Source: Bacteroidetes bacterium 2013_40CM_41_45
GTDB taxonomy: Bacteria > Bacteroidota > Bacteroidia > AKYH767-A > 2013-40CM-41-45
NCBI GenBank assembly: GCA_002215675.1
Contig: NGFH01000011.1
Coordinates: forward strand, 124,001-188,000
Direction of reading: 5' to 3'
Length of the DNA stretch: 64,000 nucleotides
The notes beneath the pieces are model-generated. The model made no database searches. It saw nothing but the letters and a program-made list of their open reading frames with translations, and was not told the origin of the DNA. Below are positions 6,290 to 39,883 of this stretch, one piece after another (the first letter of the stretch is position 1; every line of letters begins with the position of its first letter). Position numbers and translations under genes: made by a program.

Positions 6290-8377
6290 ATGAAAACAAC
6301 TACAAAAAAAATCCTGAAGTACTTTGCCATTTCAGGTGTTGCACTTACCGCGCTGATTGCCGGTGTGCAATATTATTCCCTGGATGCGTCCAGCCACCGC
6401 GAGGCACCATTGATTGCCAACGACCCGCTCGCTGACAACACCGACTTGTATGCATTCCGCAGTCCGGATGACCCGAACACGGTTACGCTGATTGCGAATT
6501 ACGTTCCCGGAGAACTTCCGCAGGGCGGGCCGAATTATTATTCTTTCGGTGAGGGAGTGCGTTACGAAATTCATATCAAGAATAACGCAGCCACGCAGGG
6601 AGATAATATTATTTACCGTTTCGAGTTCGAGCAAACTAACCAGGACCCGACAACGTTTTTCAACATCCGTCTCGGTCAGCAGAACCTGAAGACGACATAC
6701 AAATGTACGCGCAGCATCAATGGCGGACAGACGTTCCAGACGATTGTGAACAACGGCATCGTTCCCCCGAACAATATCGGGCCGCGTTCCATTACAACCC
6801 CTGTAGGGTTGAATGCTCCATCGTACGATGCGCTACGTGCAAGTGCCATTACAACGGCAAGCACGGGCGAGCAGATTTTCTGCGGACCTAGTGACGACCC
6901 TTTCTTTGTTGACCTGGGCGGTGTGTTCGATTTAGGACAAACACGGGGCAGCAGCGGAGATGCACGTGACGGGCTTGCGTGTAAAAATGTTCATTCCATC
7001 TGCATAAAAGTTCCGATCAGTACTTTGCAGAAAGACCACAAAACGCCGGCGCAGGCAGTCAACATTCTTGACCCTGATTTTGTAATCGGTGTATATGCAA
7101 CAGCCGGCCGTCAAAAACTGACGGTACTCTCTGAGAACGGAAGCAAGCCAAATTTCAATGGCAAGTGGATTCAGATTTCGCGCCTCGGCATGCCGCTCAC
7201 CAATGAAGTGATAATGCCTATAGGTAAAAAAGATTATTGGAATTATCTGAAGCCTTACAATGAAGACACCGCGCTGGAAAAATATTTTACCAATCCTGAG
7301 CTTGCTTTGTACATGGACGACAGCCAGTTTGGCGGTGCAATTCCCGCGCTCTCTGCATTGCGCATACAATCAAACTCTCTACAGGCATTTGATTTCAGAA
7401 ATTATCACAACGGTCTTGCAGGACTTCTTGGAAATCCTGCCACTGCAGGTACTGCATTTGACCAGGCATTGTTCGGCAATTATTTGCTCCGTCCCGGTCA
7501 ACCTCGTTCTGTGGATTTGCTTCCGATTTTCCTGACTGGCGTTCCGAATCTTCCTCCATACCAGCTTGCAACGGGCAAAGGCGGAAACCCGCTGGCAGCA
7601 GGGAAACCGTTTATCAATAATTTTCTTCCCACGTTCGGAGATATGCTTCGCCTTAACATGGCTGTGCCTCCGACCCAGCGTACTGACCCGAATTTTTCTT
7701 CACTCGGTTTAGTGCAGGCAGCAGTTCTCGGGCTAACAGATCCAAACTATAACACTTCAACAGCATTACAATTCATTCCTAACATGGATGGTTTCCCGAA
7801 TGGGAGACGCCTTGAAGATGATGTCACACGCATCGAGCTGCAGGCAGTAAGCGGAATTGTTCTTGCTGCAGTTGGATTGTGGTATGATGATTACACAGCA
7901 GGAGACCCGAACCCTGTAACAACGGATTTAGTGAATGTTCTCTCATATACGACAGGCGTAGAGGCAAATGATTTGCCGTTTACGACATCGTTCCCATATC
8001 TGGCATCGCCTCCCAGCGGTTTCGGAGATTGCGGAGGAACACCCTCATCAGGCGGCAACTTTGCGCCTCCGCAAGGCGGGCAGAGCTCTACCCTGGGTAT
8101 TGCTGCGCCTTCGGTTATGATGATGCAGAATTATCCGAATCCTGCTTCAGGAACTACGGTATTTAAGCTCAGGGTAAAGGATGATGCTGTTCTCACTTTG
8201 AGAATAATTGATGTGAACGGCAAAGAAATTTCCAAACCAATGAATAATAAATTTGTTGGCAACGGCACACATGATATTAGCTGCAATGTAAAGGACTTTG
8301 CAGACGGAGTATATTTTGCAATTCTCGAAATGGGAGGAGAAAGAGTTCAGTATATCAGGTTTGTGGTGGAGAAATAA
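6290..8377 (+). CDS. DUF4331 protein with T9SS type A sorting tail
   Basis: A 695-residue exported protein. It starts with a basic, hydrophobic N-terminal segment (residues 1-30) followed by SSHREAPLIANDP and DNTDLYAFRSPDDPNTVTL, the opening of the DUF4331 family. The function of the domain is unknown. The last ~85 residues, beginning near MMMQNYPNPASGTTVF and including DVNGKEI and FADGVYFAILE, form a T9SS type A C-terminal sorting domain, so the protein is probably carried across the outer membrane and anchored on the surface or released. It is divergent from a sigma/anti-sigma pair, preceded by a putative ECF promoter and followed by a strong terminator. Codon use appears ordinary. No catalytic motif was recognised. 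Confidence 0.92.
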   Translation: MKTTTKKILKYFAISGVALTALIAGVQYYSLDASSHREAPLIANDPLADNTDLYAFRSPDDPNTVTLIANYVPGELPQGGPNYYSFGEGVRYEIHIKNNAATQGDNIIYRFEFEQTNQDPTTFFNIRLGQQNLKTTYKCTRSINGGQTFQTIVNNGIVPPNNIGPRSITTPVGLNAPSYDALRASAITTASTGEQIFCGPSDDPFFVDLGGVFDLGQTRGSSGDARDGLACKNVHSICIKVPISTLQKDHKTPAQAVNILDPDFVIGVYATAGRQKLTVLSENGSKPNFNGKWIQISRLGMPLTNEVIMPIGKKDYWNYLKPYNEDTALEKYFTNPELALYMDDSQFGGAIPALSALRIQSNSLQAFDFRNYHNGLAGLLGNPATAGTAFDQALFGNYLLRPGQPRSVDLLPIFLTGVPNLPPYQLATGKGGNPLAAGKPFINNFLPTFGDMLRLNMAVPPTQRTDPNFSSLGLVQAAVLGLTDPNYNTSTALQFIPNMDGFPNGRRLEDDVTRIELQAVSGIVLAAVGLWYDDYTAGDPNPVTTDLVNVLSYTTGVEANDLPFTTSFPYLASPPSGFGDCGGTPSSGGNFAPPQGGQSSTLGIAAPSVMMMQNYPNPASGTTVFKLRVKDDAVLTLRIIDVNGKEISKPMNNKFVGNGTHDISCNVKDFADGVYFAILEMGGERVQYIRFVVEK

Positions 8378-8402
8378 GCATGTAAAATTTTTTATCGAAA
8401 AG

Positions 8403-8430
8403 AAACCCGTCAGTCGTGGCGGGTTTTTTC
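8403..8430 (+). terminator. Rho-independent terminator after the DUF4331 gene
   Basis: Perfect stem AAACCCG/CGGGTTT (8403-8409 with 8420-8426), 10-base loop, followed by a T-rich run to about 8436. It separates the DUF4331 transcript from the TPR-HupE transcript, which has its own promoter motif directly downstream. Confidence 0.85.
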
Positions 8431-8441
8431 TTTTTTAAAAA

Positions 8442-8466
8442 TCCGAAACGCTGCAGAGTTCGTATG
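8442..8466 (+). promoter_or_regulatory. Putative ECF promoter of the TPR-HupE operon
   Basis: TCCGAA (8442-8447), 13 bases, CGTATG (8461-8466), 31 bases before the ATG of the TPR gene. Identical hexamers and spacing to the motif before the DUF4331 gene. The flanking AAAAA before TCCGAA and AATCACTRAC in the leader are also shared, so an ancient duplication of the leader is an alternative to selection on sigma binding. Confidence 0.7.
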
Positions 8467-8497
8467 TTTTGCTGTTGACCCAAATCAATCACTGACC

Positions 8498-9823
8498 ATG
8501 AAAAAAAATACAGCATACATTTTCCTCTCAGGATTTTTTATCCTCTTTATTGCGCTCATCATTATTTTCGGGCGTGAAGAAAAAATTCCTGAGCTTAAAG
8601 AACGCAGTAAGGAAATTTCCAATTCAACGGAATGGCTCAATACTAAAGCCGCTGTTGAAGGACTTAGAGCAAAGCTGAGAGCGAATCCTGATGATAAGAA
8701 AACCAAACTTAATCTTGCGCTTGCCTATATACAGGAGTCGCGCATCACGGGCAATCATGCGTATTATGACAAAGCATCGCTGCAGCTTATAGATGAAATC
8801 CTCCGCAAGGATGAAAATAATTTTGACGCAGTTTGCGCCAAAGCAACCCTGTTGTTGTCTCAACATCATTTCACAGAAGCTCTTGTTGAGGGCAAACGTG
8901 CGGTTACATTAAATCCATATTCAGCTTTTGGCTACGGGATTCTTACCGATGCAAACGTTGAGCTTGGCAACTATGAGGAAGCGATTCTTGCTGCGGACAA
9001 GATGAATTCCATTCGTCCGGATTTGCGTTCGTATTCCCGCATTTCATATCTGCGGGAAATTTTCGGAGATAATATTGGAGCGCGTGATGCGATGAAGCAT
9101 GCCGTTGAATCGGGTATTCCCGGCCTGGAGCAAACGGAATGGTGCAGAGTTTATTACGGAAAATTATTTGAGCAAACAGGAGACCTGGCCCATGCGCAGG
9201 AACAGTATTTAACATCGCTGAATGACCGTCCCGATTATGCGTATGCTCTCGCAGGGCTTGGAAGAATTGACAAAGCGAAGGGCAATTACCATCAGGCCAT
9301 TGACTACTTTACAAAAGGAAAAATTGTTTTGGCAGATTATTCTTTCAGCGAAGAGCTTGCAGAGCTTTATGATGAGACTAACCAAAAAAGTAAGGCAGAA
9401 CAGGAATTAAATGAGGCGCTGCAATTGCTCGGGGCAAATTCAAAAAGTGAATCGCAAAACATTCACGGGCATTATGCAGACAGGGAACTTGCCTTGCTTT
9501 ATTTGAAGAAAGGCGATTCAGAGCTTGCATTAAAACATGCTCTTTTGGAATGCAACCGCAGGCCGGCTAACATTGATGTGAACCAAGCGCTTGCGTGGGT
9601 TTACTATCAAAGAAAAGAAATGAAAGAAGCGAATAAATGCATTGATGTTTCCCTGAAAACAAATTCAAAAAACCCGGTTTTGCTTTACCGCGCAGGATTG
9701 ATAAAAGCGGGCAACGGATATCTCAATGAGGGAATAGCACTGATGAATGAGGCATTAAACATAAACCCCTTTCTCGATTCAAGACTTAAACGGGAAGGAA
9801 TGCAATATCTCGCTTCAAGATGA
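8498..9823 (+). CDS. Membrane-anchored tetratricopeptide repeat protein
   Basis: A 441-residue protein with an N-terminal membrane anchor or signal (about 7-27, IFLSGFFILFIALIIIFG) and at least eight TPR-like helical pairs after it (for example LNLALAYIQESRI, AVCAKATLLLSQHHFTEAL, YALAGLGRIDKAKGNYHQAI, LLYLKKGDSELALKHAL). TPRs mediate protein contacts; no enzyme domain is seen, so its role is probably scaffolding at the inner membrane or in the periplasm. The stop overlaps the start of the HupE-like gene (ATGA), so the two are translationally coupled. The putative ECF promoter puts it in the same regulon as the DUF4331 gene. Specific function unknown. Confidence 0.85.
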   Translation: MKKNTAYIFLSGFFILFIALIIIFGREEKIPELKERSKEISNSTEWLNTKAAVEGLRAKLRANPDDKKTKLNLALAYIQESRITGNHAYYDKASLQLIDEILRKDENNFDAVCAKATLLLSQHHFTEALVEGKRAVTLNPYSAFGYGILTDANVELGNYEEAILAADKMNSIRPDLRSYSRISYLREIFGDNIGARDAMKHAVESGIPGLEQTEWCRVYYGKLFEQTGDLAHAQEQYLTSLNDRPDYAYALAGLGRIDKAKGNYHQAIDYFTKGKIVLADYSFSEELAELYDETNQKSKAEQELNEALQLLGANSKSESQNIHGHYADRELALLYLKKGDSELALKHALLECNRRPANIDVNQALAWVYYQRKEMKEANKCIDVSLKTNSKNPVLLYRAGLIKAGNGYLNEGIALMNEALNINPFLDSRLKREGMQYLASR

Positions 9824-10500
9824 AAACCGGAAAATATTTTTCAAGAAATAAATTTTTTTTCACAGTAATAATTTTATTGTTGATGTCGCTGTGCGCATCC
9901 GCTCATGTTACTTCTTATGATTTTGCACAGATGAGCAAAGGAGCCATCGGCTGGATTTACCTGCAGCTTGGATTCACCCACATTCTTCCGAACGGTTACG
10001 ACCACGTTTTATTTATTCTCGGATTATTCCTGCTTAGCCCCCGTCTAAAACCGTTGCTTTGGCAGGCGACAGCATTTACGGTTGCGCACAGCATTACCCT
10101 GGGGCTTGCCATGTCTGGAAAAATAAATCCCCTTCCTTCCGTTACCGAGCCGTTGATTGCATTATCCATTGCTTTTGTTGCAGCAGAAAATATTCTCCTC
10201 AACGAATTAAAATGGTGGCGGATTCTTATTGTATTTTGTTTCGGGCTGATTCACGGCTGCGGTTTTGCTACCGCGCTCCAGGAAATGGGACTGCCGGATA
10301 AAGATTTTTTTCTTTCCCTGGTTTCTTTTAATGCAGGTGTTGAGCTTGGCCAAATAACCGTTATAGCAACGGCTTATATCCTTATCGGAAAATGGTTCGG
10401 AGAGAAAGTATGGTACAAAAAGAGAATAGTAATTCCTGTATCTGCAATGATTTCCGCTGTTGCCCTTTACTGGACAGTAGAAAGAATTTTTATCGGCTGA
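9820..10500 (+). CDS. HupE/UreJ family membrane protein
   Basis: A 226-residue integral membrane protein with a cleavable-looking N-terminal segment (about 9-28) and some six further hydrophobic helices. Family signatures are NGYDHVLFILGLFLLS, TAFTVAHSITLGLA and FGLIHGCGFATAL, with conserved histidines likely to bind metal. HupE and UreJ relatives move nickel or cobalt, but no hydrogenase or urease genes are here, so the substrate is open. It overlaps the TPR gene by four bases and is convergent with the HlyD-like gene (2-base gap). Being inside the putative ECF regulon suggests a role linked to the DUF4331 surface protein rather than to hydrogenase assembly. Confidence 0.87.
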   Translation: MKTGKYFSRNKFFFTVIILLLMSLCASAHVTSYDFAQMSKGAIGWIYLQLGFTHILPNGYDHVLFILGLFLLSPRLKPLLWQATAFTVAHSITLGLAMSGKINPLPSVTEPLIALSIAFVAAENILLNELKWWRILIVFCFGLIHGCGFATALQEMGLPDKDFFLSLVSFNAGVELGQITVIATAYILIGKWFGEKVWYKKRIVIPVSAMISAVALYWTVERIFIG

Positions 10501-10502
10501 AA

Positions 10503-11918
10503 TTATTTTTTCTCTTCACCTTTAAACAACTCTTCTTTTTTCACCACTTCCACCAGGCTACCGTCTTTTAATTGCCGTGACAGCGCATTGTAAGGAGCAA
10601 TTACGACTTCTTCAGTGCCTGTAAGTCCGCTGTCAATCTGCATAAAATTTAAATCCTGGATTCCAATTTTAACTGCCTTCAATTTTGCTTTGCCTTTTTC
10701 AATTACAAATACGCATTCAACTTTATTTTTATCCTTCTCATCATCGGGCAGCTTTGCGGAGCTGACTTCTCCTGACGAACTTACTTCAACTTCTTTGTTT
10801 TTTTCTGCCCTATCTTTTTTGTTTTTATCCCCGGCTTTCTTTTCAGCTGTTGTATCGCGCGTGGTTACTGCCTGGATAGGAACTGAAATAACATTTTTCG
10901 CTCTCTTTGTTTGTATTTCCACCGTAGCAGACATGCCCGGGAAGAAAACCGGTTTAATGGAATTGTCCTTGCTCATCAAATCGTTATATGATTCCTTAAT
11001 CACGCGGATGAGAACAGTAAAGTTTGTCACCTGGTCTGCACTCTTGCCAATGATGTTGGCGCTGTTCGCCACCTCTGTAACAATTCCCTTAAACTTCCTG
11101 TCTGGGTACGCATCCACTTCTATCAGCGTAGTGTCATTTAAGTTTACGCGGACAATATCGTTTTCATTAACATCCACATTCACCTGCATTTCGTTAAGGT
11201 TGCTAAGCGACATGATTTCTGTTCCCGCAAACTGCGAAGTGCCTACCACTCTTTCTCCTTTCCTGTTATTGAGCTTTGAAATGGTTGCATCAACCGGAGA
11301 AAAGATAGAGGTCTTAAGCAGGTTATCCCTCGACTCCTTCAGCGCGGCTTCCGCACTGGTTACATTGTATTCCGATGCTTTTACATTCTGAACAGCTGCT
11401 TCGTATTCACCTTTTGCAGCATCGAGAGCCGCCTGCACATTTTCATACTCGGCGGATGAAATCATTTTCTGGTCGAAAAGTTTTTTGTTGCGGTCGAAAT
11501 TGAGTTGCGATTTATCGAGCTGTGATTTTGCCTGGTCCTGGCGTGCTTTTGCACTGAGAAGATTTGCTTTGGCCGTGCTTACTGCTGCATCAGAACGCTC
11601 CAGCAGCGATTCGTAAATATCAGGTTTTATTTTTGCAAGTAGTTGTCCTTTGGTTACGCGGTCGCCAACCTTCACAGGCAGCTCCACAATTTCTCCTGAA
11701 ACATCCGGGCTTATTTTCACTTCTGTTTCGGGCTCAACTTTTCCGCTGGCAGTCACCGTTTCTATAATGTTTCTCTTCGCTGCTTTTTCTGCTGCAACTT
11801 TTATCACATCCCCTTTACCAAACCATCCCGCGCTCTTTCCTACAACAAGGAAAACAATAAGTGCAATTGTGACAATAATGGGCCAGCGAAAGAATTTATT
11901 TTTTGGCAGTATATTCAT
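10503..11918 (-). CDS. Efflux transporter periplasmic adaptor (HlyD/MacA-like)
   Basis: A 471-residue membrane fusion protein that would link an inner-membrane pump to TolC. One N-terminal transmembrane helix (about 12-31) is followed by a lipoyl-like half (VTASGKVEPETEVKISPDVSG, then VKVGDRVTKGQLLAKI). A long coiled-coil hairpin covers about 100-200, then comes the second lipoyl half and the beta-barrel (PGMSATVEIQTKRAKNVISV). A charged low-complexity insertion (about 355-400, rich in Lys, Glu, Asp) interrupts the barrel region. The gene follows tolC by 6 bases. No ABC or RND pump subunit follows, since the next gene is convergent, so the pump must be elsewhere. Confidence 0.9.
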   Translation of the reverse strand: MNILPKNKFFRWPIIVTIALIVFLVVGKSAGWFGKGDVIKVAAEKAAKRNIIETVTASGKVEPETEVKISPDVSGEIVELPVKVGDRVTKGQLLAKIKPDIYESLLERSDAAVSTAKANLLSAKARQDQAKSQLDKSQLNFDRNKKLFDQKMISSAEYENVQAALDAAKGEYEAAVQNVKASEYNVTSAEAALKESRDNLLKTSIFSPVDATISKLNNRKGERVVGTSQFAGTEIMSLSNLNEMQVNVDVNENDIVRVNLNDTTLIEVDAYPDRKFKGIVTEVANSANIIGKSADQVTNFTVLIRVIKESYNDLMSKDNSIKPVFFPGMSATVEIQTKRAKNVISVPIQAVTTRDTTAEKKAGDKNKKDRAEKNKEVEVSSSGEVSSAKLPDDEKDKNKVECVFVIEKGKAKLKAVKIGIQDLNFMQIDSGLTGTEEVVIAPYNALSRQLKDGSLVEVVKKEELFKGEEKK

Positions 11919-26906: not shown

Positions 26907-28958
<2,052 letters not shown>

Positions 28959-28976
28959 GTCAGCTTAAAAGATTAG

Positions 28977-30560
28977 TTATTTATTTTTTTCAAGAAGTTC
29001 AATTCTTGATTTTAGGTTTTCAATTAATTGCTGTTGCTGAAGAATGGTTTGCTCCAACTGCTGCTGTTTGTAATCAATGGCCTTGATACCAATGGTATTT
29101 AATCCGATTACTTCGGATAAGCTATAGGTAAGCTTGCCTTCCATTTCAGGAATCTTACAATCCTTCATCACGTTAACCGCTTCTTTCGGCAACGACTGGG
29201 CTAAAAATCCTATATGCTTTTGTTCCCTGTAATGCTTGCCTGCCGAATGAATATTTGATTCGTAGTTGTAATAATATGTTGCACTCTGAATGTTCCGGAT
29301 TTGTTCCAGGTATTGCTCGTATTCGCTTTGCACTATATTGTGAATATCATGTTTAAGAGAAGCATCGCTCGAAACAGTAAAGGCGGCAGCATTAATAGTT
29401 CCGTAAACTGCGCCCGTAGTGTCATAAACACCAAGAGTGTTGACTCCATCAATACCAAAAATAATTCCATTTCCATTGGGGGCTATAAACCCCGCTGAAG
29501 GAAAATTTCCCGCAGCAGCTGCACCGATTACAAGAGGTTGGTCAGAAATGTTGAAAGACGTATAGTCGAAACGAAGATTGGTTCTGCCCACAACGTGAAG
29601 TGTAGTTGCAGGAGCAATTGTTCCAATGCCCACATTGCCGGAAGCTGCAATTCGCATTCTTTCAAGCGAATTGGTTCCAAAAATGATAGGTTGGTTCTCC
29701 CAATCCCAAACAACAGCATCACCTGCTGATGAATTGGTTCCAACAGCAAAACCATCGGTAATGGCTTGCCCCGTTGTGTTGCTCGAAAATGTGATTGCTG
29801 CCCACGATGCGGGATCGTGGATATGTAAATCATTTGCAGGGGTAGTTGTTCCGATTCCAACCTGAGTTCCGCTGTCATAAATTATTGAATTACCTCCAGT
29901 AGTTGCACTGGTAAATTTGACAAGATAATTTGTTGTACCGTTGATGTTTGCTGCTCCCGTGGCGCCGGTAGCACCCGTTGCTCCTGTTGAACCTGTGGCT
30001 CCATTTAATCCGGTAGCCCCTGTAGCGCCCGTGGAACCGGTAGCTCCATTTAATCCCGTAGCGCCTGTTGCTCCTGTTGCCCCGGTGGAACCATTTAATC
30101 CTGTAGCTCCGGTAGCACCTGTTGGTCCGGTCGGGCCTGTAGGTCCGCCACTTGCATTGGCTGCATATAATGCATAAGGAACGCTGAGTAATTGTGACTC
30201 TCCCATTACCGTGTAATTAGAGTTAGTGCCTGTAGGGTCTAATTCAGTTTTGAGGTAATGATTTCCTGTGCTCCACACAATAGAGTTGTAATTTCCCGAT
30301 ACAGCAAATCCACCGCCTAACTGGAGAGTGAATAATCCGAATGCGTTTGTGGCTACATTCTGGTATTCGCTGTATAACACAGGGCCGCCTGAACCGTTAA
30401 GGATGCTGAGCCGCACAGAAATACCTGTGCTTACAAGCGGGTTGCCTGCCGAGTTGCGTGCTACCGCCTGGTAATTTATTTTATTGGTTGGTTGTGCAAC
30501 AGCAGCGTTTATTAAAGCAAAGAGAATAAAAGTTCCTAAAAGAGATGTAATCTTTTTCAT
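28977..30560 (-). CDS. Collagen-like protein with C-terminal S74 intramolecular chaperone domain
   Basis: A 527-residue paralogue of the neighbouring protein. Signal peptide ends NAAVA with Gln next. The head (24-137) is followed by collagen-like triplets (about 138-203) and a fibre region. From about 395 comes the S74 chaperone domain of tail-fibre proteins: [10 protein letters not shown] with Ser398 and Lys403 placed as the self-cleavage pair, then [14 protein letters not shown] and a C-terminal Gln/Leu-rich coiled coil. In phage fibres this domain guides trimer assembly and then cuts itself off. Inferred surface fibre, made as a self-assembling trimer. Separated from the other collagen-like gene by 18 bases, so probably one operon. 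Confidence 0.88.
29952..30149 (-). repeat. Gly-X-Y coding repeat of the second collagen-like gene
   Basis: DNA encoding about twenty-two Gly-X-Y triplets, including three spaced copies of GLNGATG or GLNGSTG. An imperfect 18-27 base higher-order repeat is visible, so this tract may be prone to expansion. Confidence 0.85.
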
Positions 30561-37666: not shown

Positions 37667-37822
37667 TTACAGAGGGCGACTGGTGAGCTGTCGAACCAAG
37701 AAGCCAACCATTTTAATTCTCTCAACCTCCCGTCCCGCTTTCGGGTCGCAGGAGCTCCCCTCAATCGGGGCTAGTTTAGCAGCGGTGGGAAGTCTCACTA
37801 ACCAATAAGATATTCGGAGAAG

Positions 37823-37860
37823 TCCCCTCTGAGCGCAAGCCACAACGTTGTGAGAGGGGA
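37823..37860. repeat. Palindromic element TCCCCTCT/AGAGGGGA
   Basis: Arms TCCCCTCT (37823-37830) and AGAGGGGA (37853-37860), with a perfect inner 12-base palindrome CACAACGTTGTG (37841-37852). Followed by TTTAGGGGTGTGTC. The outer arms are shared with the hairpin after nrdA (42268-42288). Confidence 0.8.
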
Positions 37861-37883
37861 TTTAGGGGTGTGTCAAACACTTT

Positions 37884-37927
37884 ACTAGGGAAAACCCTAA
37901 TTCGTACTAGGTTTTCCCTAGTTTTTT
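37884..37927 (+). terminator. Strong hairpin with T-tract upstream of the HNH gene
   Basis: ACTAGGGAAAACC (37884-37896) and GGTTTTCCCTAGT (37910-37922) are perfect 13-base inverted repeats with a 13-base loop, followed by a short run of T. It can end the adhesin transcript. Because it lies 55 bases before the HNH start, it could instead be an operator or attenuator for the island. Confidence 0.65.
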
Positions 37928-37981
37928 GTGCTTAATTGATATTGTCCTTTTTTATACATTCATTTGTTGTGACATTCATTT

Positions 37982-38923
37982 ATGAAATTTTACGTAGGCG
38001 TAACGGACAATGAGTGGTTTGATTATTTAAGCAAGATCAATCCGGAAGATGTTAATTTCTGGAAGCCGGGAGGTACATTATCTTTTAACGCAATTCCAGC
38101 AGGAGCACCATTTCTATTAAAACTTAAAAGTCCAAATAACGCGATAGGAGGTATTGGTTTTTTTTCTAGTCATTCCTTTTTGCCGATATCTGCTGCATGG
38201 GAAATATTTAAAGATAGAAATGGAGCCCCTACATTTTTAAAGTTTCAGGAAAATATCAGACGATTAAGAAGCAGTAATAATCCATTAAGTACAAATCCTA
38301 ATATTGGATGTGTCGTTTTGACAAATCCAATATTTTTTAGAAGAGAAGATTGGATACAGATGCCAGAAGACTGGAAGGCAAGTATTCAACAAGGCAAAAC
38401 ATATTTGACTGAAGAACCTATCGGTAAAAAGCTCTGGGGTGAAGTCGAAAAGCGACTTGAAAAATATCGTTTCTATGCTGCTGCTGATGAAACAAAAAAT
38501 CAATTATTGTTAGAACCAGAAGCACAATATGGAAAACCAGTATTACAAAAAGTTAGATTAGGGCAGGGGGCTTTTAGAGTTTTAGTGACAGATGCTTACG
38601 GAAAAAGATGCGCCATTTCAGGAGAAAGAACGCTTCCCGTGCTTGAAGCTGCACACATAAAAAGTTTTTCTGAATCGGGGCCGCACTTTATTTCTAATGC
38701 TCTACTTCTCCGTTCTGATTTGCATAAATTGTTCGATAACTTTTATTTAACAATTACTCCTGAGTATAAAATAGAAGTGAGCAAAAAAATAAAAGAAGAA
38801 TTTGAAAATGGCAGAGAGTATTACAAATACCATGGAAATGACATTCTAATTTTACCAAATAGAGATATTGATAAACCTAGAAAAGATTTTATTGAGTGGC
38901 ATAATAACAGATTCAAAATATAA
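37982..38923 (+). CDS. HNH endonuclease with N-terminal PUA/EVE-like region
   Basis: A 313-residue predicted restriction-type nuclease. The C-terminal half has the HNH core: KRCAISGERTLPVLEAAHI (Cys210, His225), Asn239 in FISNALLLRSDLHKLFD and His248, fitting the HNH_2 type seen in predicted restriction endonucleases. The N-terminal ~100 residues (NEWFDYLSKINPEDVNFW, then GAPFLLKLKSPNNAIGGIGF) resemble the PUA-like heads of such enzymes, some of which read modified bases; that role is inferred. No methyltransferase is adjacent, which would fit a modification-dependent nuclease. It abuts the next gene with no gap. Base composition falls visibly from here into the next two genes. Confidence 0.82.
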   Translation: MKFYVGVTDNEWFDYLSKINPEDVNFWKPGGTLSFNAIPAGAPFLLKLKSPNNAIGGIGFFSSHSFLPISAAWEIFKDRNGAPTFLKFQENIRRLRSSNNPLSTNPNIGCVVLTNPIFFRREDWIQMPEDWKASIQQGKTYLTEEPIGKKLWGEVEKRLEKYRFYAAADETKNQLLLEPEAQYGKPVLQKVRLGQGAFRVLVTDAYGKRCAISGERTLPVLEAAHIKSFSESGPHFISNALLLRSDLHKLFDNFYLTITPEYKIEVSKKIKEEFENGREYYKYHGNDILILPNRDIDKPRKDFIEWHNNRFKI

Positions 38924-39418
38924 ATGGATTTCATCGCAATAACCGTTTTAGGGAATAGAAATTCCGGTAAGTCAAAAACTTGGAACAAATTATTTGGACG
39001 CAGAGTTAAGACAGGCATTGAAGTTAGACGTCTTTATTTTAATAGAAAAGAATATGTTAAGGTATTCCTTGTTAGTGGAAGTCCTGAAGAACGAGAAACT
39101 TATGTAGGAGGAATAATTGGACGTAAACGTCCACAAATTATTCTTTGTTCAATACAATACCGTGAAGATGCGTTTCAGACCATTCAGTTTTTCATTGATA
39201 ACAACTATTCCATATTTTGTCATTGGTTAAATCCTGGGTTTCATGATGATAGTAATGTGCCAGTATTTGATAGCTTGGGAATAATTAATTGTTTGCTTTC
39301 ACTTAATGCGACAGTAGGAATCCGTAATGGCAAGAAGAATCCCTCAAAACGTGTAAGGGAAATGAGGGGTTATATTTATGGATGGGCAAAAACAAGAAAC
39401 CTTATCCTAAGTGACTAA
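38924..39418 (+). CDS. Small P-loop protein, family not recognised
   Basis: A 164-residue protein whose ATG follows the HNH stop codon immediately. Residues 3-20 form a beta strand and Walker A loop, FIAITVLGNRNSGKSKTWNK (GxxxxGKS at 10-17). Later hydrophobic strands QIILCSIQ and YSIFCHWLN fit a compact nucleotide-binding alpha/beta fold. No convincing Walker B acidic residue or GTPase NKxD motif is seen. Probably binds ATP or GTP and may act with the HNH enzyme as a regulator or sensor. I do not recognise a named family. AT-rich like its neighbours. Confidence 0.75.
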   Translation: MDFIAITVLGNRNSGKSKTWNKLFGRRVKTGIEVRRLYFNRKEYVKVFLVSGSPEERETYVGGIIGRKRPQIILCSIQYREDAFQTIQFFIDNNYSIFCHWLNPGFHDDSNVPVFDSLGIINCLLSLNATVGIRNGKKNPSKRVREMRGYIYGWAKTRNLILSD

Positions 39419-39433
39419 TCTAAAGTTTCGGTT

Positions 39434-39883
39434 ATGAAAGAGATTCTTAAAACAACTTTACTTGAATATGATAAGAGTAGTTTTCTTATTGATATTATAA
39501 AGCATAATAGCAGCAATTTATATATTTCCATTACCCAGACAATTCATCAGGATGACAATTCTCTATTTCAATCAGAACTAAAAATTAATCCATCTATTTT
39601 GGATGATATTATGGAAGTACTTGCAGCGTATGAAAAATTAATTCCTAAAGAACAATTTAATAAGAAAAATTATTTATCAAAAGATAGAAAAAATTCTATC
39701 ACAAGAAGTTATTTAAAGGGTATTACTATGAAGGATTTGGCACTTCAAAATAATTGTTCTGAAAATTTAATTGAACAAATTTTAACTAATCGAGGGATTG
39801 AAATTGTAAAAGAAGGATTAAAATTTAAAAACCCTGTATGGATTAGACGCAAAACGAAAAGCAAGAAAGGATTATTTTTATAG
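39434..39883 (+). CDS. Probable DNA-binding protein with C-terminal helix-turn-helix
   Basis: A 149-residue protein, 15 bases after the P-loop gene. The N-terminal ~70 residues (SSFLIDIIKHNSSNLYISIT, then SELKINPSILDDIMEVLAAY) have the strand-strand-helix look of PC4/PUR-type nucleic-acid-binding domains; this is a weak similarity judged by eye. Residues about 90-125 (SYLKGITMKDLALQNNCSEN, then LIEQILTNRGI) fit a helix-turn-helix. The C-terminus is very basic (RRKTKSKKG). It could regulate the island or bring the nuclease to DNA. DNA here is very AT-rich; the 60 bases from 39661 contain only 12 G or C. Confidence 0.65.
   Translation: MKEILKTTLLEYDKSSFLIDIIKHNSSNLYISITQTIHQDDNSLFQSELKINPSILDDIMEVLAAYEKLIPKEQFNKKNYLSKDRKNSITRSYLKGITMKDLALQNNCSENLIEQILTNRGIEIVKEGLKFKNPVWIRRKTKSKKGLFL

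Follow-up and report, generated by a model that had tools for sequence, protein, structure and literature searches.

The locus raises the question whether three adjoining, co-directional genes in the 64,000-nt stretch of DNA analysed here (the window) form one conserved anti-phage system or were brought together locally from separate sources. The original prediction took the first view, and proposed a defence module made of an HNH nuclease, a P-loop protein and a helix–turn–helix (HTH) protein. The ORF coordinates and the gaps of 0 and 15 bases are exactly those it gave: the TAA of gene 1 runs straight into the ATG of gene 2, and 15 nt separate gene 2 from gene 3 (Table 1). Since relatives from other species align with each of the three over most of its extent (~34–62% identity), we regard them as real genes. 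The AT-richness ascribed to the trio is equally clear: GC content is 0.345, 0.349 and 0.253 for genes 1, 2 and 3, whereas the 43 other window ORFs of at least 120 aa average 0.430 (sd 0.025) and none falls below 0.380. The corresponding GC3 values of the trio are 0.245, 0.255 and 0.187, and the lowest among those 43 is 0.348. These neighbours thus have the three lowest values of both measures among the 46 window ORFs of this size, and it is as a compositional outlier that we regard the trio as horizontally acquired. RNA families and tRNAs were searched for and none was found.

Table 1. Genes and spacer features of the three-gene operon (window coordinates)
Feature	Position	Strand	Description
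Gene 1 (P0001)	37982..38923	+	313 aa; PUA-superfamily (ASCH/EVE-like) head plus HNH
Gene 2 (P0002)	38924..39418	+	164 aa; small P-loop protein, Walker A GNRNSGKS, degenerate G3/G4
Gene 3 (P0003)	39434..39883	+	149 aa; small protein, predicted helix–turn–helix near C-terminus
Upstream spacer	37667..37981	.	Dispersed repeats, matched 37 times in own genome
Terminator-like perfect 13-nt inverted repeat, then T run	37884..37928	+	Also lineage-specific dispersed palindrome

When the three proteins were compared by BLAST with the ORFs of the fetched neighbourhoods of their relatives, no fetched locus held relatives of any two of the genes side by side, and each gene was found to occur without the other two. 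Within the loci fetched, a conserved three-gene system is therefore rejected and the proposed module does not stand as such, its homologues never being adjacent; the genome scan worked with short exact peptides and so finds too few relatives, and an uncommon trio may have escaped it. The expected recurrence beside other defence genes was seen for gene 1 and for gene 2 separately and not for the trio together, and neither the P-loop nor the HTH protein matches a housekeeping family. Considering that relatives of these genes occur without each other, we take the island to be an operon put together from parts that move independently. We consider it fairly probable that the trio is a horizontally acquired, locally assembled operon of defence type, in which a VcaM4I-like type IV enzyme (gene 1) is joined by a mobile defence factor (gene 2) and a regulator (gene 3), and not a conserved three-part system.

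Gene 1 comprises an N-terminal PUA-superfamily domain (residues ~1–160), a linker helix and a C-terminal HNH domain (~180–313), so that the PUA-like head and HNH nuclease originally proposed are supported by both fold and sequence comparison. It matches Pfam HNH_2 at 7.7e-12, its PADLOC and NCBIfam matches are confined to the HNH half, and its profile (15 sequences) matches the EVE-HNH modification-dependent restriction endonuclease VcaM4I (PDB 6yex; PMC7897488) at 1.1e-13 over the HNH domain, and the SRA-HNH enzyme TagI (PDB 6ghs) at 0.0046. The HNH triad H225, N239 and H248 is intact, invariant in 15/15 aligned sequences, and aligned with H224, N241 and D250 of VcaM4I (PMC7897488), gene 1 having a true second His where VcaM4I has an Asp. 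In the AlphaFold model (pLDDT 73) residues 1–161 fall in the PUA superfamily, with ASCH proteins as the nearest structural neighbours of the head (Z 12.3, rmsd 3.1, 137 residues aligned) and a Z of 11.0 to AF2351. Against full-length VcaM4I the model gives a Z of 9.1 over 219 aligned residues with a large rmsd, which suggests that the domains would be placed differently in the two proteins.

The likeness to VcaM4I extends to size (309 aa against 313 aa) and to the order of head, linker and C-terminal HNH, whereas the match in sequence spans the HNH half alone and the head leans towards ASCH. In VcaM4I a hydrophobic pocket formed by P24, W82 and Y130 receives the flipped modified base (PMC7897488); the invariant W27-x-P29 in the head of gene 1 fits the pocket-edge W22-x-P24 by pattern only. 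TagI and the phosphorothioate-sensing HNH enzymes (NF045808) share a related HNH domain with gene 1 but carry a different sensor domain, and the NF045808 match to gene 1 covers the HNH part only, far below its cut-off. EVE-HNH architectures have been predicted to be type IV restriction enzymes (PMC7641849). In agreement with the absence of a methyltransferase noted at the outset, PADLOC models found none, and indeed no match of any kind, in the 10 genes near the trio in the window, and genes 2 and 3 match no methyltransferase family.

Gene 1 is thus an enzyme of a known kind, the VcaM4I type, and is most likely a solitary modification-dependent (type IV) restriction endonuclease, a predicted role that the fold and sequence comparisons support; by analogy with VcaM4I it probably cuts chemically modified phage DNA. 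On the same analogy, it would act as a dimer: a modified base in the incoming DNA would be flipped into a pocket by the PUA-family head, and this would free the HNH domains, or bring them into position, for cleavage. Full-length relatives (37–62% identity) were found in no fewer than 12 further Bacteroidota genomes of the sample; rhizobial and Deinococcus plasmids carry such relatives too, as do two viral contigs. They often adjoin restriction–modification genes: one lies next to a type ISP gene and three (L054, L055 and L058) have type I genes nearby, no defence gene being recognised in the neighbourhoods of the others. With its ASCH/EVE-type head, gene 1 represents a separate branch of the HNH enzymes that cleave modified DNA, one in which new modified-base specificities might usefully be sought.

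Gene 2 belongs to an undescribed, defence-associated family. It reaches no curated family in family database searches, a literature search found no paper describing its family, and neither it nor gene 3 matches a PADLOC defence-system model. Sub-threshold matches to MMR_HSR1 occur in 8/9 family members (best 0.0012), a PDB profile search finds EngA/Der at 0.027, and Foldseek finds Arf and EngB at ~1e-4. Since the model is of low confidence (pLDDT 66) and the VIA-align scores lie mostly inside the range of common arrangements, we limit the assignment to a P-loop NTPase that is probably TRAFAC-like. With the TRAFAC GTPases (EngB, EngA/Der and Arf/Rab) gene 2 shares, as far as weak sequence and fold matches go, the GxxNxGKS Walker A and the alpha/beta order, but it lacks both the G3 DxxG and the G4 [NT]KxD motifs. 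The G1/Walker A at residues 10–17 has G10, N13, G15, K16 and S17 invariant; in place of G3 there is SGSP (G52, S53 and P54 invariant) after the strand at 44–50, and in place of G4 there is WLNPGxxD at 101–108.

It could be argued that gene 1 is the sole defence gene, and that genes 2 and 3, as selfish or decaying accessory genes, are passengers unrelated to it. Neither is in a curated family, the gene 2 copy in Mesonia is broken, and gene 2 is patchy, being found in 1/395 sampled Bacteroidota genomes (the window's own) and in 1/397 genomes of the family of G182, the latter being the Bizionia genome that also figures among the hosts named below. Yet 39 columns are invariant across nine gene 2 sequences from several phyla, and defence neighbours of its relatives recur, and we think this explanation unlikely. 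The relatives are few (L002–L009 and the viral contig L091), their hosts including Bizionia, Tenacibaculum, Lacinutrix, Mesonia, Nostoc, Stenotrophomonas and Calothrix. Phage records held no relatives of gene 2 or gene 3, and viral contigs held the single gene 2 relative in L091 and none of gene 3. In L091 (843–2290) the gene after this relative, of 256 aa, has no match and begins like a PIN domain; a gene resembling a repressor lies close by.

The neighbourhoods of these relatives point towards defence. In L003 one lies 1 nt before an Mrr_cat nuclease (8e-9), after which come Hachiman HamA (1.3e-112) and HamB (4.3e-295), and in L004 another has Shedu SduA (4.8e-73) upstream and PD-Lambda-1 (4.7e-188) 68 nt downstream. 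In L005, from Lacinutrix, the gene 2 relative is flanked by an Xer/IntI-like recombinase and by the first of three 139-nt repeats; 1.6 kb beyond is a SoFic-like gene (3.8e-46), and a similar one is found 3 kb from the broken copy in L009. The L005 region itself (6885–11189; Flavobacteriaceae) resembles an integron array, in which the repeats separate small genes and adjoin a tyrosine recombinase close to the XerA and IntI models, below their cut-offs. In the Stenotrophomonas integron (L008), a gene 2 relative whose C-terminus appears frameshifted forms a single-gene cassette between two of ~20 attC-like repeats. Integron cassettes are reported to contain many anti-phage genes not yet recognised as such (summarised in PMC12444791). 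The link to defence is not universal, since the two Nostoc copies (L006 and L007) stand alone among housekeeping-looking genes, with no defence neighbour noticed, and the association as a whole, read from raw contexts, is suggestive and not proven.

McrBC and GmrSD are NTP-dependent modification-dependent restriction systems, and the trio resembles them in that an NTPase-type protein is encoded alongside a nuclease for modified DNA. Genes 1 and 2 might accordingly be a true two-component system, in which the NTPase couples nucleotide hydrolysis to the HNH nuclease, much as McrC is driven by McrB, and gene 3 is the regulator. The stop–start junction without a gap between genes 1 and 2 would suit such coupling, as would the closeness of gene 2 relatives to the Mrr_cat nuclease in L003 and, in L004, to two further defence genes of nuclease type. 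We nevertheless judge it improbable, considering that relatives of genes 1 and 2 lie apart in every locus fetched, so that, unlike in McrBC and GmrSD, the partnership is not conserved; that the relative in L008 travels alone; and that the matches of gene 2 are TRAFAC-like and not McrB-like, the trio having no AAA+ ring protein.

Within a locally assembled operon, gene 2 would instead be a mobile nucleotide-binding protein that works alone or as an optional helper of an adjoining nuclease. Given the repeated defence neighbourhoods, the integron cassettes and the viral contig, we infer that an anti-phage role is likelier than a housekeeping role, and gene 2 is a candidate mobile anti-phage gene: concrete, short, testable and without an entry in PADLOC. 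More tentatively, and with the balance of probability still against so broad a claim, it may be the founding member of an undescribed anti-phage family, whose small and mobile P-loop proteins would be GTPase-like but have a rewired nucleotide site, could pair with one nuclease or another, and would be scattered over the defence islands, integron cassettes and viral elements of Bacteroidota, Cyanobacteriota and Pseudomonadota.

An ORF of 46–48 aa that resembles a small HTH protein lies just upstream of the gene 2 relative in L004 (7857–7997) and L005 (7862–8008) and is conserved between them; L009 keeps a relic of it. With the short spacing of genes 2 and 3 in the window, it might suggest that these two are a toxin–antitoxin-like or abortive-infection pair that gene 1 adjoins by chance. 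However, the small ORF shows no detectable kinship with gene 3, such a partner is missing among the ORFs listed for L003, L006, L007 and L091, and there is no match to a toxin–antitoxin family, so we hold this to be the least probable of the explanations considered.

Returning to the locally assembled operon, gene 3 is probably a regulator: its HTH, weakly predicted, gives weak NCBIfam and PHROG matches of HTH type only, and it may perhaps act as a small DNA-binding protein that regulates the operon. A PC4/PurA-like N-terminus was considered from a reading of the sequence, and PDB profile matches to nuclear receptors and importin alpha look like chance and were set aside. Relatives of gene 3 are few (L047, L048, L101 and L102) and mostly isolated; that in L048 shares a short contig with type I restriction–modification genes (MTase_I 4.9e-277), and that in L102 adjoins a resolvase gene.

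The repeat-rich spacers said to bracket the operon are found on its upstream side (Table 1), the downstream spacer being nearly unique, with a single 25-nt match elsewhere in the genome. The palindrome upstream of gene 1 (37884–37922) reads ACTAGGGAAAACC-N13-GGTTTTCCCTAGT; the half-site, CTAGGGAAAACCCTA, occurs 24 times without mismatch in the window's own genome, often as intergenic pairs or triplets, and is absent from 60 relatives. An integron cassette in the window was rejected as an origin of the trio, since the gaps of 0 and 15 nt are too short for attC sites, and is also disfavoured by the spacer repeats being genome-wide. For an empty-site comparison, relatives of the downstream flanking membrane protein were sought in 10 other genomes of the family, and none was found. 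A repeat of ~100 nt at 37700–37807 in the window is dispersed through the genome, where some 20 copies, all diverged, were seen. Elsewhere in the window (26907–30560), two adjoining genes have similar N-termini, and the one searched against Pfam carries collagen-repeat and endosialidase-chaperone domains.
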